Shown here piece by piece: positions 54,714 through 60,185 of a DNA stretch of 64,000 nt. Position numbers and translations under genes: made by a program. Position 1 is the stretch's first letter, and every line of letters starts with the position of its first letter. Origin of the DNA: Robertkochia solimangrovi (lineage in GTDB: Bacteria; Bacteroidota; Bacteroidia; Flavobacteriales; Flavobacteriaceae); NCBI RefSeq assembly GCF_007279655.1, contig NZ_QKWN01000001.1, positions 682,001-746,000 of the forward strand. The letters run 5' to 3'. The notes under the pieces are model-generated. The model did no database searches, was not told the origin of the DNA, and saw nothing but the letters and a program-made list of their open reading frames with translations.

Positions 54714-56129
54714 ATGAAACGCAGAAAGTTCATTAAGCGTGCCGCGATGGCCGGTAGCGCATTTTACATTGTGCCTTCCCATGTTTTGGGTGGCAAACAT
54801 GTTCCTCCGAGTGATACACTCTATATGGCCGGTTTCGGTGTCGGTGGACGTGGTGGAGGTGTGGTTGGAGAACTGCATCAAACCGGAAAAGTGAAGTTCG
54901 TCGCATTTTGTGATGTCGATGACAGAAGCGCTGCCGGGACTTATAAGAAATTCGATAAAACCGCCAAATATAAAGACTTCAGAAAGGTTTATGATGCCCA
55001 TCTGAAAGAGATCGATGCGGTGATGGTAGCAACACCCGATCATAATCATGCTACGATTGCGATACCTTTTATGCGTGCTAAAAAGCATGCTTATGTTGAA
55101 AAACCGTTAACCCATAACATCATGGAAGCGCGATTGATGTCAAAAGTTGCCGCTGAAAATGGTATCGTAACCCAAATGGGAAATCAGGGGAGTTCATCAG
55201 ACGGTATCCGTACCGCTCAGGAATGGATCGATGCCGGTGTTATTGGGAAAGTAAATCGTGTGGATTGCTGGACGAACAGGCCAGTATGGCCACAGGGTAT
55301 GAAAAGTGAGTTGCCGGGGCAACCGGTTCCCGCAGAACTCGATTGGGATCAGTGGCTCGGACCCGCAGCCATGAGACCGTACAATGATGCCTATCTGCCG
55401 TTCAAATGGCGGGGTTGGTGGGATTTTGGCACCGGGGCACTCGGAGATATGGGTTGCCATATCATGGAAACTCCTTTTAAAGCCTTAGGTCTAGGATATC
55501 CGTATGAAGCCGAAGCGAGTTGTACTACGGTTTGGTCGGGAGATTTTGTAGAGGCGAATTATGCGAGTGCTTGTCCGCCTTCATCTGTCGTGCGATTGAA
55601 ATTTAAAAATGATACACATGGCGATGTTTCTCTGAACTGGTACGATGGTGGAATTATGCCGGATATACCGGAGCAACTTCAAAAGGGGGAAACCATCGGT
55701 GATACCGGTGGAGGAAGTATTTTCTATGGGGAGAGAGGAATCCTGGTTACCGATACTTATTCTGCTAACCCTCGTATCCTGAAACATTATAAGGATAGCG
55801 TAGGAGATTTTCCGAAAGAAACCTTGCAAAGGGTTAAGAAAGGACATGCTGATAATTTCGTTAACGGATGTTTAAACGGGACAGAGACTTCTTCACCTTT
55901 CTCTTACGCCGGTAAACTTACTGAAGCTGTATTGATGGGTAATCTCGCGATAAGAGCTTATCAGATGAAAGAATTAAAGAACGGGAAATCCCCAGGTGAC
56001 TGGGAACCGTATAATTATCCGGGTAGAAAAAAACTTCTATGGGATGGTGAACGTATGGAGGTGACCAACTTTAAAGAAGCCAATGATTGGGTTAAGGGAG
56101 AATACCGTGATGGCTGGAAGCTGAGTTAA
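54714..56129 (+). CDS. Tat-exported Gfo/Idh/MocA family oxidoreductase
   Basis: 471 residues. The N-terminal MKRRKFIKRAAMAGSAFYIV is a twin-arginine-like signal, so the enzyme is exported folded with its NAD(P) cofactor. The Rossmann motif MAGFGVGGRGGGVVGE, the VATPDHNHATIAIPFMRAKK region and the catalytic Lys in YVEKPLTHN follow. The C-terminal domain includes FGTGALGDMGCHIMETP. Exported members in Bacteroidetes act on sugars or glycosides, but the substrate is not shown. The gene-free sRNA array starts 226 nt downstream. Confidence 0.9.
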   Translation: MKRRKFIKRAAMAGSAFYIVPSHVLGGKHVPPSDTLYMAGFGVGGRGGGVVGELHQTGKVKFVAFCDVDDRSAAGTYKKFDKTAKYKDFRKVYDAHLKEIDAVMVATPDHNHATIAIPFMRAKKHAYVEKPLTHNIMEARLMSKVAAENGIVTQMGNQGSSSDGIRTAQEWIDAGVIGKVNRVDCWTNRPVWPQGMKSELPGQPVPAELDWDQWLGPAAMRPYNDAYLPFKWRGWWDFGTGALGDMGCHIMETPFKALGLGYPYEAEASCTTVWSGDFVEANYASACPPSSVVRLKFKNDTHGDVSLNWYDGGIMPDIPEQLQKGETIGDTGGGSIFYGERGILVTDTYSANPRILKHYKDSVGDFPKETLQRVKKGHADNFVNGCLNGTETSSPFSYAGKLTEAVLMGNLAIRAYQMKELKNGKSPGDWEPYNYPGRKKLLWDGERMEVTNFKEANDWVKGEYRDGWKLS

Positions 56130-56355
56130 TGTTGGAAACTATCGGTCTGATGGCACATTGAATAGTGACGATTTCCTTTGCCTCGCATTCGTCAAGTGTC
56201 GATTCACTGCTTGCGCTGCGTGAAGTGTCGTCGCTATTTGTGGGCCTTTAGCCCAAAATGCTATACTGACCTGTGGTGAAAGTGTTCTTCGCTGGCTCAG
56301 TTGATTGGATGTGGAATTTAGATGCTCAGCGTCTGTTTGGGATAGTATAAAAATG
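56130..56355. other. Gene-free stretch before the sRNA-like array
   Basis: Contains GGAAATCGTCACTATTC on the minus strand (about 56163-56179), a member of the dispersed ATCGTCACT element, and no gene. Confidence 0.4.
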
Positions 56356-56430
56356 AAAAGGGTGGACTAACGTCCACCCTTTTCTTGCCCCAAATCTTAC
56401 CATGAACTTAACCTACTTATGCTATGGTGA
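56356..56430 (-). ncRNA. Tandem sRNA-like unit, copy 1
   Basis: On the minus strand: a 45-nt block identical in all five units (56385-56430), whose 5' ACCAT can pair with ATGGT 20 nt later, a short G-rich linker (TTTGGGGCA), and a terminator hairpin AAAAGGGTGGAC-GTTA-GTCCACCCTTTT (56356-56383). The -7 element TATCTTTA (56433-56440) precedes it. This copy's hairpin loop is inverted relative to the GGGCAGAC type. No protein is needed to explain it. The strand is inferred from promoter and terminator order. Confidence 0.68.
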
Positions 56431-56432
56431 TG

Positions 56433-56463
56433 TAAAGATATATTTGGGTTTGAATACTGTTAA
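56433..56463 (-). promoter_or_regulatory. Promoter of unit 1 (weak -33)
   Basis: -7 TATCTTTA at 56433-56440; the -33 is only TTAA/TTTA at about 56460-56464. Confidence 0.4.
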
Positions 56464-56608
56464 ATAAATCTGATTAACGTATGCTTTTTTAGATGAAATA
56501 CCTGAGACGGGCTATAAAAAACTGATGGGTATAAAAAACAGTAAATCAGTAAGTTAGAAGTGTGATTTAAACAGATACAAAACGTGTAGGACTTTATTTA
56601 TACAAAAT

Positions 56609-56682
56609 AAAAAAGGTGGAAATTAATCCACCTTTTTTGCCCCAAATCTTACCATGAACTTAACCTACTTATGCTATGGTGA
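56609..56682 (-). ncRNA. Tandem sRNA-like unit, copy 2
   Basis: Same identical block (56637-56682) and linker; the terminator stem is the second type, AAAAAAGGTGGA-TTAATT-TCCACCTTTTTT (56609-56638), with a 12-bp stem. The promoter is complete (56685-56715). The upstream ~145 bp are near-identical to those of copy 3, so the two arose by duplication. Confidence 0.78.
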
Positions 56683-56684
56683 AG

Positions 56685-56715
56685 TAAAAGTATACGGATG
56701 TGCTTCAATCTCAAA
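56685..56715 (-). promoter_or_regulatory. Promoter of unit 2
   Basis: Minus strand: TTTG (56712-56715), a 19-nt spacer, TACTTTTA (56685-56692). It matches TTTG-N19-TAnnTTTG except for the last base (A for G). The predicted start is at the CACC of the conserved block. Confidence 0.72.
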
Positions 56716-57132
56716 AAGAATAAGTTTAAAGTCTTTTCTTTTAGATTAATGGAATGAAATCCGATGAACTACAACGTTATTTCTGATGAACTACCTAATT
56801 CTTATATACTAATACTTATTACGTATTTCATAGGGATGATTATGGTTTTATGAATTTTTAGGTTTTTAATCTATAATCCGTTCTAAATCGGTGACCATCC
56901 TTTTCCTGATGACTCGGGCCAACTTCGGTGAAGTCGAGGTGTGATCCTGTATGCGACAGGCAGCCTTCCTCTATTTGTTTAAGATTTCATCGAGTGGCGT
57001 TGCTATCGTAGTGCTTTCAAATGAGGCTGCTATAATGACTTGTGGCAATATTTACGAAGTGATTTCACGGACACAGTTTAGAGTGGTTATTGAAGGTTCC
57101 TTTGTGGGAGGTCTGTGGTTCGGTATATAAAT
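56716..57132. repeat. Spacer between units 2 and 3, left part duplicated
   Basis: 56683-56827 and 57207-57351 are near-identical (about 145 bp), sharing AAAGAATAAGTTTAAAGTC and CTACAACGTTATTTCTGA. The right part of the spacer has no gene and no further structure that I can see. Confidence 0.6.
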
Positions 57133-57206
57133 AAAAAGGGCAGACGTTAGTCTGCCCTTTTTGCCCCAAATCTTACCATGAACTTAACCTACTTATGCTA
57201 TGGTGA
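57133..57206 (-). ncRNA. Tandem sRNA-like unit, copy 3
   Basis: Identical block at 57161-57206. Terminator stem of the third type: AAAAAGGGCAGAC-TAAC-GTCTGCCCTTTTT (57133-57162), 13 bp. The promoter is complete (57209-57239). The downstream GGTATATAAATA side matches copy 4. Confidence 0.78.
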
Positions 57207-57208
57207 AG

Positions 57209-57239
57209 TAAAAGTATACGGATGTACTTCAATCTCAAA
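57209..57239 (-). promoter_or_regulatory. Promoter of unit 3
   Basis: Minus strand: TTTG (57236-57239), a 19-nt spacer, TACTTTTA (57209-57216). Confidence 0.72.
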
Positions 57240-57700
57240 AAGAATAAGTTTAAAGTCCTTTCTTTTAGATAAATGGAATGAAATCCGACAAACTACAACG
57301 TTATTTCTGACGAAATGCTTCATTCTTATAGACTAATACTTTATACGTATTACCTAACGTCGATAAAAGTTTTGAGATTTTTGGAGAGGACTGCCTGTTG
57401 GGTGGGTTCTTTTAATAGTACCAGATCATAGTTCCGTGACGATCTTGTTTGCCGGAGGCAGGCAAGACATCGGACGGACCTTTGGTGAAGCTGTTACGTC
57501 TTCTCACAGAATTTGGAAGGCCTGTTTGCGCTTCCTGAATTGTTGTCATTATTTAGGTCCATGAGGCCTAAAGTCTAAATCGACTTGACGTGGAAGTTAT
57601 TGGGTAAGTTTAATTCTTCTTAGCGCTCTTCAGAAGGTCAGGTTTAATGGTGGTTAATGGCGTTAGCTGTACAGAAGGTTTGTTGGTTTGGTATATAAAT
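57240..57700. other. Spacer between units 3 and 4
   Basis: No gene. It contains on the minus strand TTGCCTGCCTCCGGCAAACA followed by AGATCGTCACGG (57432-57470), a REP-like hairpin plus the dispersed ATCGTCAC core. Confidence 0.45.
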
Positions 57701-57774
57701 AAAAAGGGCAGACGTTAGTCTGCCCTTTTTGCCCCAAATCTTACCATGAACTTAACCTACTTATGCTATGGTGA
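57701..57774 (-). ncRNA. Tandem sRNA-like unit, copy 4
   Basis: Identical block at 57729-57774 and the same GGGCAGAC stem as copy 3 (57701-57730). The promoter is complete (57777-57807), though its spacer sequence has diverged while keeping length 19. The homology with copies 2 and 3 extends about 70 bp upstream of the unit. Confidence 0.78.
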
Positions 57775-57776
57775 TC

Positions 57777-57807
57777 TAAAAGTATGCGGATGGATTTCTA
57801 TGTCAAA
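57777..57807 (-). promoter_or_regulatory. Promoter of unit 4
   Basis: Minus strand: TTTG (57804-57807), a 19-nt spacer differing in about half of its positions from that of unit 2, TACTTTTA (57777-57784). Both boxes and the spacing are kept, which supports selection on the promoter. Confidence 0.72.
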
Positions 57808-58111
57808 AAGAATAGGTTTAAAAGCCTTTCTTTTAGATTAAAGGAACGTTTTTCGATTAATGGCATGTTTCTTAAGTGTTGAAAATCAGTATACCAAATG
57901 GTTTTTTTATTGTTAATAAATCGATATTTGAGGTGTTGGTGTTAACAATGAGCTGCTCTGATTTTTTCTAAGGTATCGTATTATGAAAAATCCTTTTGAA
58001 AGATTTGCGTATCCAAGCCAGGAAGTTTTCACTTCTGATTTAATGAATATAAAAGGCTGAAAATGAGAAAATATTAAAAAGATGTGGGGTGAAATGAAGA
58101 TTGTGTAAAAT
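57808..58111. other. Spacer between units 4 and 5
   Basis: AT-rich, no gene. The left ~40 bp still resemble the region upstream of units 2 and 3. Confidence 0.4.
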
Positions 58112-58185
58112 AAAAAAGGTGGAAATTAATCCACCTTTTTTGCCCCAAATCTTACCATGAACTTAACCTACTTATGCTATGGTGA
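58112..58185 (-). ncRNA. Tandem sRNA-like unit, copy 5
   Basis: Identical block at 58140-58185 with the GGTGGA stem of copy 2 (58112-58141). The -7 is TATCTTTA (58188-58195); no TTTG is found 19 nt upstream, so it may depend on an activator or on read-through from purF, whose stop is 101 nt upstream on the same strand. Confidence 0.72.
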
Positions 58186-58187
58186 CA

Positions 58188-58195
58188 TAAAGATA
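58188..58195 (-). promoter_or_regulatory. -7 element of unit 5
   Basis: TATCTTTA in the same register as in the other units; the -33 is not recognisable (ACAT). Confidence 0.4.
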
Positions 58196-58286
58196 AGCGG
58201 TAAGTTTTTGTTTAATGTTAATTATCGGTTAAAATGCACAAAATACCGATGAAATGCACATTATCTTCGATAAAATCCAAATATTA

Positions 58287-60185
58287 TTAATAAGCTCTCT
58301 CCTTTATTCCTTCGTAAAAATTGATGAAAGCTCTGTTAACCACACGGTTACCACCCGGAGTTGGGTAATCTCCGGTGAAATACCAGTCACCTAGATTTTT
58401 AGGACAAGCGATATGTAGATTATCAACCGTTTGGTAAATGATACTTACTTCCGCATTGATGCCCTCCGGACTCAGAATTTCTGAGATCTTAGCAGATATC
58501 TCTTCATCTGTAAAAGGTTCATAGATGCGTTGTACCGCATTGACTACCTCCTTGTCGTCAAGATCAACCTGAGACTTACAGCTATCGTATACTTCTTCTA
58601 CTATATAATAGGTGTCGCGTTCTTCGTGAAGCGCCAATGCAGCTCGGAAAGCAACAAGGTCTTCCAGGCGCGCCATGTCGATACCATAACAATCTGGATA
58701 TCGAATTTGTGGTGCCGAGGATACCACAACGATCTTCTTAGGATTCAGGCGGTCCAGTATTCGAAGGATACTTTTCTTTAGAGTAGTTCCACGTACGATA
58801 CTGTCATCGATAATAACAAGGTTGTCAGTTTTTTTAACCGAACCATAAGTGATATCATAGACATGTGCAACAAGATCATCACGGCTGCTGTCTTCTGTGA
58901 TAAATGTTCTCAGTTTAGCATCCTTGATCGCGATCTTTTCGATCCTTGGTCTGAGCGATAGTATCTTATGTAGCTTTTCTCTGCTCAGGTCTTTGCCTGC
59001 TTCCAGGATCAGCTGCTCCTTTCTTAAATTCAGATAATTCTGTGCTTCTTTGACGAGTCCGAAGAAGGAAGTTTCCGCCGTGTTTGGAATATAGGAGAAA
59101 ACGGAATTCTGCAGATCTCCGTCAACCTCTTCTATGATCTTGGGAAGTAAAAGACTGCCGAGTTTCTTACGTTCCTTGTAGATCTCTGCATCGGATCCTC
59201 TTGAGAAATAGATACGTTCGAAGGAACATGCCTTGCGTTCAAGAGGTTCCAGTATTTTTTTCAGTTTGGTTTCTCCACTTTTCTTAATGATGATAGCTTT
59301 TCCCGGTGGCAGTTCTTCGATGTCTTCGAATTCAACATCGAATACGGTTTGTATCACCGGACGTTCAGATGCCACTACAACCACTTCATCATCCTGATAA
59401 AAGTAAGCCGGGCGAATACCTGCCGGATCACGAAGTACGAAAGCATCACCATGTCCGATAAGTCCGGCCATGGCATAACCACCATCCCAGTTTTTGGCAG
59501 CTTTTCTAAGGATCTTGGCAACATTGAGTCTGTCGGCAATGATCGGTGAAGCTTCCATTTTATTGAAACCTTCTTTTTTGACCTCTTTGTAGAGTTTGGC
59601 TACTGCATCATCCAGGAAATGACCGATCTTTTCCATTACGGTAATGGTATCTGCTTTTTCCTTTGGATGTTGCCCGAGTCTGATCAGGTTGCTGAAGAGC
59701 TCGTTTACATTGGTCATATTAAAGTTACCGGCTACGATCAGGTTACGATGCATCCAGTTGTTTTGTCTAAGGAATGGGTGAACACTCTCGATACTGTTCT
59801 TTCCGAAAGTACCATATCTAACATGTCCGAGCATCAACTCCCCAACATAAGGAACCTCTTTTTTCATCAGGTTCATGTCATTCTGATACTCAGGATTCGC
59901 GATAAGCTCTTCATTGATTCTGCTGTTGATCTGATTGAAGATATCCTGAATAGGCTGACTCTGATTGGAGCGAACTCGGCTCATATATCTTTCGCCGGGT
60001 TTCATATTCATTTTAATGCTCGCAAATCCTGCTCCATCCTGCCCTCTGTTATGCTGCTTTTCCATCATAAGGTACATCTTATTGATGCCGTAAAAAGCAG
60101 TGCCATATTTTTCTTTGTAATACTCCAAAGGTTTACGGAGCCTTACGAGGGCGATCCCACATTCGTGTTTAATAGCGTCACTCAT
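58287..60185 (-). CDS. purF: Amidophosphoribosyltransferase PurF (long flavobacterial form)
   Basis: 632 residues. The N-terminal MSDAIKHECGIALVRLRKPL puts the Ntn nucleophile at Cys9 after a short leader expected to be cleaved. The glutaminase domain has KQHNRGQDGAGFASI and HVRYGTFGKNSIESVHPF; the phosphoribosyl part has the PRPP motif NLVIIDDSIVRGTTLKKSI. It makes 5-phosphoribosylamine, the first committed step of purine synthesis. It is about 120 residues longer than the E. coli enzyme. It is 28 nt downstream of the PfkB kinase and followed by the sRNA-like array. Confidence 0.94.
   Translation of the reverse strand: MSDAIKHECGIALVRLRKPLEYYKEKYGTAFYGINKMYLMMEKQHNRGQDGAGFASIKMNMKPGERYMSRVRSNQSQPIQDIFNQINSRINEELIANPEYQNDMNLMKKEVPYVGELMLGHVRYGTFGKNSIESVHPFLRQNNWMHRNLIVAGNFNMTNVNELFSNLIRLGQHPKEKADTITVMEKIGHFLDDAVAKLYKEVKKEGFNKMEASPIIADRLNVAKILRKAAKNWDGGYAMAGLIGHGDAFVLRDPAGIRPAYFYQDDEVVVVASERPVIQTVFDVEFEDIEELPPGKAIIIKKSGETKLKKILEPLERKACSFERIYFSRGSDAEIYKERKKLGSLLLPKIIEEVDGDLQNSVFSYIPNTAETSFFGLVKEAQNYLNLRKEQLILEAGKDLSREKLHKILSLRPRIEKIAIKDAKLRTFITEDSSRDDLVAHVYDITYGSVKKTDNLVIIDDSIVRGTTLKKSILRILDRLNPKKIVVVSSAPQIRYPDCYGIDMARLEDLVAFRAALALHEERDTYYIVEEVYDSCKSQVDLDDKEVVNAVQRIYEPFTDEEISAKISEILSPEGINAEVSIIYQTVDNLHIACPKNLGDWYFTGDYPTPGGNRVVNRAFINFYEGIKERAY

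Follow-up and report, generated by a model that had tools for sequence, protein, structure and literature searches.

The question raised by this locus is what is encoded by five identical copies of a short block, lying in an interval without a gene, in Robertkochia solimangrovi. The window, i.e., the whole 64,000-nt stretch of DNA that was analysed, contains the 46-nt block TTGCCCCAAATCTTACCATGAACTTAACCTACTTATGCTATGGTGA five times with 0 mismatches and always on the minus strand (plus-strand coordinates 56385, 56637, 57161, 57729, and 58140; start-to-start distances of 252, 524, 568, and 411 nt). No five-copy perfect block was found in 100 dinucleotide shuffles, and a search of the whole genome returned exactly these five copies, all in the single array. 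Read on the minus strand, all five blocks have a TAnnTTT motif, a -7 box of the Bacteroidota kind, upstream and a G+C-rich hairpin with a T run downstream, and between 56130 and 58286 there is no ORF of 60 AA or more. These results uphold what a first-pass annotation had claimed, namely five unchanged blocks of one orientation, each with a -7 box and a terminator, in 2.1 kb free of genes; the block length was given there as 45 nt. Its further claim, that the spacers differ and that the units and not the region are conserved, held in part: units 2-4 (in order from purF) have up to 254 nt of upstream sequence in common, promoters included, with identities of 87% and 64% within the segments common to these three middle copies. 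As the common segments extend beyond the unit, longer segments must have been duplicated.

The RNAs predicted from all five units are 73-75 nt long and fold far better than shuffled sequences (z -3.7 to -5.7). Each begins with ACCAUAGCAUAAGUAGGUUAAGUUCAUGGU, which forms a hairpin with an ACCAU/AUGGU stem, followed by the open linker AAGAUUUGGGGCA and a strong terminator hairpin. An RNA of about 75 nt with this order of elements had been proposed in the first-pass annotation, and it held as a prediction. The units are as follows:

58112..58184, minus strand: sRNA unit 1, nearest purF, 73 nt (hairpin, linker, terminator); covariance model R1 98.1 bits (contig 740112-740184), perfect block, fold
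57701..57773, minus strand: sRNA unit 2, 73 nt; R1 match (contig 739701-739773), perfect block, fold
57133..57205, minus strand: sRNA unit 3, 73 nt; R1 match (contig 739133-739205), perfect block, fold
56609..56681, minus strand: sRNA unit 4, 73 nt; R1 match (contig 738609-738681), perfect block, fold
56355..56429, minus strand: sRNA unit 5, 75 nt, linker 2 bases longer; R1 91.6 bits (contig 738355-738429), perfect block, fold

The unit is not restricted to this species. Its core, at up to 3 mismatches, was present in 14 of 60 relatives and was tandem wherever a contig carried more than one copy. With covariance model R1 at E <= 0.01, the family was detected in 295 of 349 Flavobacteriaceae genomes and 206 of 237 genera, about 277 of the 349 genomes having E below 1e-8 (manual count of listed rows), with 1-8 tandem copies per carrier genome. 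The sRNA occurs, for instance, in Flavobacterium, Zobellia, Maribacter, Aquimarina, Winogradskyella, Lacinutrix, Salegentibacter, Aequorivita, Arenibacter, and Muricauda. Across the phylum, a sample of 296 genomes gave 26 strong R1 matches, all in Flavobacteriaceae, the best match outside the family in this sample reaching only E 3.5e-4. When 23 genomes of the order from outside the family and 16 Flavobacteriaceae with a weak match or none were searched with higher sensitivity, nothing stronger than 1e-4 emerged. No copy of the sRNA unit was found in the viral contigs searched, and carriage by phages was rejected on this ground.

The place of the array in the genome is conserved as well. In the window it is flanked by two genes:

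58287..60185, minus strand: purF, amidophosphoribosyltransferase, 632 AA, conserved as the gene upstream of the array; synteny, GATase domains
54714-56129: Gfo/Idh/MocA oxidoreductase gene, convergent to the array

Every true locus of the first set retrieved was flanked by purF or by the adjacent oxidoreductase gene of the genus of the window. Among 118 named loci, purF was visible in 102, and in 102 of these 102 it lies upstream of the array on the same strand, the first unit starting 67-144 nt past the purF match in 95. A convergent superoxide dismutase gene (sod) is located downstream of the array in 94 of the 118, often within about 150 nt. In the genus of the window the convergent neighbour is the oxidoreductase and not sod; the oxidoreductase gene thus fills the slot that sod holds in most Flavobacteriaceae. 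Three loci (L095, L146, and L156) have neither purF nor sod nearby. The unit can therefore live elsewhere, and it is the unit, not the place, that counts.

Two single-stranded elements of the RNA are almost invariant, the hairpin loop AGUAGGUUAAGU and the linker AGAUUUGGGGC; they stay constant while the remainder of the RNA drifts. Loop (UAGUAGGUUAAGU) and linker barely vary even in the most divergent copies, with the exception of the loop GGUUAGU in some Flavobacterium copies. The predicted fold closes part of the loop. It should be mentioned that the units of the 392-unit set were chosen by the loop/linker pattern, which makes the invariance there partly circular. The model-scored set depends less on the pattern: its sources were fetched by pattern, and extra copies were found by the covariance model. 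Divergent extra copies were seen next to standard ones (L170:1849-1923, plus; L140:3958-4032, plus; L120:6552-6627, minus); their hairpin arms are altered, but the linker and most of the loop are retained.

Covariation was examined in 128 aligned units (111 distinct rows). Standard pairs occupied 97.0% of the paired cells in the 128 units vs. 87.8% for shuffles and 38-56% for slid controls. The terminator showed two-sided changes at all 11 pairs, was 99.3% paired, and was otherwise free in sequence, and the 5′ stem kept 97% of its pairs over the 111 distinct sequences, with three positions compensated. The alignment was fitted to the covariance model and is thus biased toward the structure; the original MAFFT alignment likewise shows the terminator covariation. 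The linker occurs as AAGAUUU in one set of genera and as AGAUUU in another (GTAAGAT vs. GTAGAT in DNA). Such a one-base deletion, fixed in whole lineages, breaks any reading frame. Because the terminator covaries while changing freely and no frame is kept, the unit is very probably a non-coding RNA. That the units represent a real multicopy family of transcribed non-coding RNAs, spread across Flavobacteriaceae, we regard as equally well supported, with the reservation that transcription is inferred from sequence without any RNA data.

The sequences preceding the units were aligned on the loop (392 units, 318 after dereplicating the upstream region). Position-specific conservation over the 392 units revealed TAnnTTTG a few nt upstream of the hairpin and a T-rich -33 region. 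From the position of the -7 box, transcription is predicted to start at or just before ACCAU, i.e., at the hairpin. Farther upstream, nearly every promoter carries two copies of TTYATCnRAWW. After realignment, the distance between their starts was exactly 20 nt in 233 of the 255 dereplicated units; in 224 of the 255, vs. 1 of 255 shuffled, both boxes scored above the 1% threshold. In the window these elements are:

58188..58195, minus strand: -7 box of TAnnTTT type, unit 1; conservation and window sequence
57777-57784, 57209-57216, 56685-56692, and 56433-56440, minus strand: -7 boxes of units 2-5; conservation and window sequence
58222..58254, minus strand: double box of unit 1, TTTCATCGGTATT (58254-58242) and TTTTAACCGATAA (58234-58222), starts 20 nt apart; weight-matrix scores 12.9 and 13.0
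57810..57842, minus strand: double box of unit 2, TTTAATCTAAAAG and TTTAAACCTATTC; weight matrix
57242..57274, minus strand: double box of unit 3, ATTTATCTAAAAG and TTTAAACTTATTC; weight matrix
56718..56750, minus strand: double box of unit 4, ATTAATCTAAAAG and TTTAAACTTATTC; weight matrix
56466..56498, minus strand: double box of unit 5, TTTCATCTAAAAA and GTTAATCAGATTT; weight matrix

Since nearly every promoter has the double box, a single transcription factor probably drives the array. The double box is likely the site of a dimeric activator, the regulator and its binding being inferred from sequence alone. Spacing by two helical turns recalls sites of the LytTR or AraC type. The loop AGUAGGUUAAGU, the purF/sod locus, and the double box had all been missed in the first-pass annotation.

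A subtype of the RNA, with GGGAC replacing GGGG, occurs in the Maribacter/Zobellia/Arenibacter lineage in addition to the standard copies (L009:1274-1347, minus; L019:2668-2741, plus; L136:2096-2168, plus). It is the copy closest to sod wherever sod is visible, and its promoter, TTATTTCnCACAATACCAGTAATTTAG, is distinct, strongly conserved, and without the usual double box. The subtype with its own conserved promoter points to specialised copies. A double-box match at 20-nt spacing was also observed in acpP promoters of the Maribacter/Muricauda group (L113, L125, L139, L144, L174, L176, and L208). A regulon common to the sRNA units and acpP was rejected, as the match is confined to Maribacter/Muricauda, lies at a different (nearer) distance from the -7 box, and is absent in Flavobacterium.

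No Rfam family accounts for the units. The Rfam search proposed in the first-pass annotation gave no match to them; at the gathering threshold only the tRNA was reported, and at permissive thresholds only chance or terminator matches. The motif was absent from the text of the papers searched. The statement that no named family contains the block thus holds for Rfam; homology to one of the Flavobacterium psychrophilum Rfp1-89 transcripts remains possible; the species is not among the named carrier loci. The closest analogues are FopS (Rfam RF04319) and GibS of Bacteroides thetaiotaomicron, which pair at start codons, in the case of FopS at those of SusC-like mRNAs, which it represses (PMC11697453, PMC7366714). 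Like the units, FopS is a multicopy Bacteroidota sRNA of about 70 nt that ends in an intrinsic terminator and has a conserved seed, and its consensus UUCAUgGUAUUAGAUUU resembles UUCAUGGUA--AGAUUU of the units, a possible R1′ seed. Yet the units score only 20.7-21.1 bits with model RF04319 and do not meet its gathering score of 56; this score is owed in part to the terminator, and the FopS-like stretch lies partly within the stem. The 5′ end of FopS is unstructured, whereas a 5′ hairpin is predicted in 5/5 units and is 97% paired over 111 distinct sequences. Unlike FopS, the units have a GGGG linker, stand in tandem at one conserved locus rather than dispersed, and occur in Flavobacteriaceae only. 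Rfp18 of F. psychrophilum, conserved in its genus, has an effect on secreted metalloproteases, and an adhesin has been predicted as a target (PMC9723704); it is likewise a flavobacterial sRNA, and its functional class is that of the candidate targets of the units, but it has at least three stem-loops vs. two in the present unit. Sets of several near-identical sRNA genes that have separate promoters and terminators and obey one regulator are known as Qrr in Vibrio, LhrC in Listeria, and the Cia-dependent sRNAs in Streptococcus (summarised in part in PMC11697453). These belong to other phyla, have no sequence relation to the units, and answer to different regulators; Qrr requires sigma-54 and Hfq.

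Anatomy, conservation, covariation, locus, and promoter boxes of the family are shown here. As to function, a family of trans-acting, base-pairing multicopy sRNAs is the likely reading, which we hold with moderate confidence; transcription, regulator, mode of pairing, and targets are all inferred. Several copies with the same seed are present per genome (five identical blocks here, 1-8 in relatives), and each has, at the level of sequence, its own promoter, terminator, and common regulator site. In the proposed mechanism, each of the five units would be a gene in its own right for the same regulatory sRNA (about 74 nt), starting from its own TAnnTTTG promoter and ending at its own intrinsic terminator. 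A common transcription factor acting on the two direct-repeat boxes (TTYATCnRAWW, 20 nt apart) would switch them on. The 5′ hairpin (ACCAU/AUGGU stem) would present the loop AGUAGGUUAAGU, with the open linker AGAUUUGGGGC next to it, and by analogy with FopS and GibS both may pair in trans with translation-initiation regions of mRNAs and alter their translation. Several copies would provide a fast and strong dose. The genes that might be regulated in this way are that of a giant T9SS adhesin, together with its PorP/SprF partner gene, and those of a secreted S8 peptidase and a bactofilin.

Targets of the linker, whose prediction had also been proposed in the first-pass annotation, were sought in start regions over 843 kb of the R. 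solimangrovi genome and 1.2 Mb of one congener, and conserved targets in 430 ortholog pairs of two congeneric genomes, with 150 shuffled seeds as controls. The two best conserved start-region partners of the linker were the giant adhesin (-15.7/-17.0 kcal/mol) and the bactofilin (-14.1/-16.3 kcal/mol), and their ranks were matched by 2 and 0 of the 150 shuffled seeds, respectively. Counts of complementary words common to ortholog start regions were not above those of shuffles; the two partners thus beat shuffled seeds and the word counts do not. The adhesin, 3890 AA in length, carries a type IX sorting domain (CHU_C), and a PorP/SprF gene follows. The adhesin leader contains GCCCCAAAT and TATGCTATG, which are complementary to linker and 5′ arm and stand in the correct order, and this is the only such place in the 843 kb apart from the sRNA genes. 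Both linker and loop are predicted to pair around the start codon of an S8 peptidase, a secreted protein with a type IX sorting domain. Start regions with 8-nt complements belonged to predicted secreted proteins in 20 of 34 cases vs. 36% in shuffles, by a rough hydrophobicity rule. The best start-region candidates in the 843 kb of one genome are not SusC-like.

A number of results speak for caution. Only two genomes support the adhesin and bactofilin sites, and a distant bactofilin gene (L209) had no pairing site. A target screen with the loop only was no better than with shuffled seeds. None of the long perfect complements was conserved between genomes, and exact 13-mer complements, searched in 40 genomes, gave no match in the genus of the window. 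An apparent excess for the linker with its A tail came partly from matches to promoter TTTTGCC, and the search was rerun without the tail. Two further candidates, gltA and comF, were rejected, as their loop complements at the start occurred in one small genome and were not conserved. The loop GGUUAAG recalls the 5′ end of 23S rRNA; as no convincing complement was found at the 23S ends, 23S rRNA was rejected as a loop partner. We also observed CCCCAAATC 16-22 times per small genome (G070, G290, G205, G119, and G194) vs. 3-8 times for the reversed control, an excess that may perhaps be due to coding bias. The linker TTTGGGGCA, put forward in the first-pass annotation as a possible pairing seed, holds as one of two nearly invariant single-stranded elements, and its pairing with mRNA remains an inference. 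T9SS adhesins and other surface proteins are possible targets; the evidence, predicted from sequence, is weak, and they should be taken as leads only.

A bolder reading, which we consider improbable, is that the family, as a multicopy riboregulator, corresponds in flavobacteria to the FopS system of Bacteroides, with a seed related to FopS R1′ and a place behind purF since the family arose, and that under one dedicated transcription factor it would set the translation of T9SS-secreted adhesins, proteases, and surface proteins.

Among the other explanations, the most serious is that the RNA is transcribed and mainly binds protein, as a sponge or mimic like RsmZ/CsrB or 6S RNA, with loop and G-rich linker as protein sites multiplied by the tandem copies. 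The conservation of loop and linker far exceeds the usual need of short mRNA seeds, the copies are many, conserved mRNA partners are weakly supported, and restriction to Flavobacteriaceae could also fit a lineage-specific protein partner. However, no protein-site motif is repeated within one RNA, which has a single loop and a single linker, no sponge or 6S family of Rfam matched above threshold, and the conserved mRNA partners of the linker are still better than those of shuffled seeds; we therefore regard this reading as unlikely. Less likely still, indeed very doubtful, is action in cis, with the array insulating or terminating transcription between purF and the gene that converges on it (often sod), or being antisense to the 3′ end of the latter. 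It would fit the position behind purF in 102/102 loci with purF in view and the sod gene facing the array in 94/118 named loci, often at no more than about 150 nt. Yet every unit is preceded by a conserved promoter and double box of its own, an invariant loop and linker are unnecessary for a terminator, of which one would be enough, an oxidoreductase replaces sod in the genus of the window, and three loci lie apart from both genes.

Two more alternatives can practically be ruled out. A mobile or selfish DNA repeat (REP- or MITE-like) without an RNA product, which the first-pass annotation had named as a refutation of its own reading, would agree with the variable tandem copy number between species and with duplicated segments that exceed the unit. 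It is disfavoured by the single array that holds all copies of the window genome, the place kept across Flavobacteriaceae, the covarying stem and terminator, the preserved promoter boxes, and the lack of any viral contig with the unit. Similarly, a small-peptide gene (ATG GTA AGA TTT GGG GCA...) has in its favour an ATG inside the block and the conserved sequence, but the one-base deletion past this ATG is fixed in many genera (GTAAGAT/GTAGAT), and with a terminator free in sequence neither frame nor C-terminus is kept. The sRNA-family reading, already put forward in the first-pass annotation, is thus strongly supported by conservation across Flavobacteriaceae, the covarying terminator, the conserved double-box promoter, and the absence of a kept frame.

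Members of the large family Flavobacteriaceae are found in the sea, in soil, and in association with fish. Rfp18 is the only flavobacterial sRNA with a reported role that we found in the literature searched. The present family offers a stretch for a Northern probe (AGUAGGUUAAGUUCAUGG), a locus that can be deleted, and an upstream site for fishing the regulator, and the covariance model can be used for annotating thousands of genomes. If the sRNA reading is true, the family would be a core regulator of Flavobacteriaceae, found in most genera as several copies at a fixed locus and equipped with two near-invariant pairing elements and a promoter switch in common.
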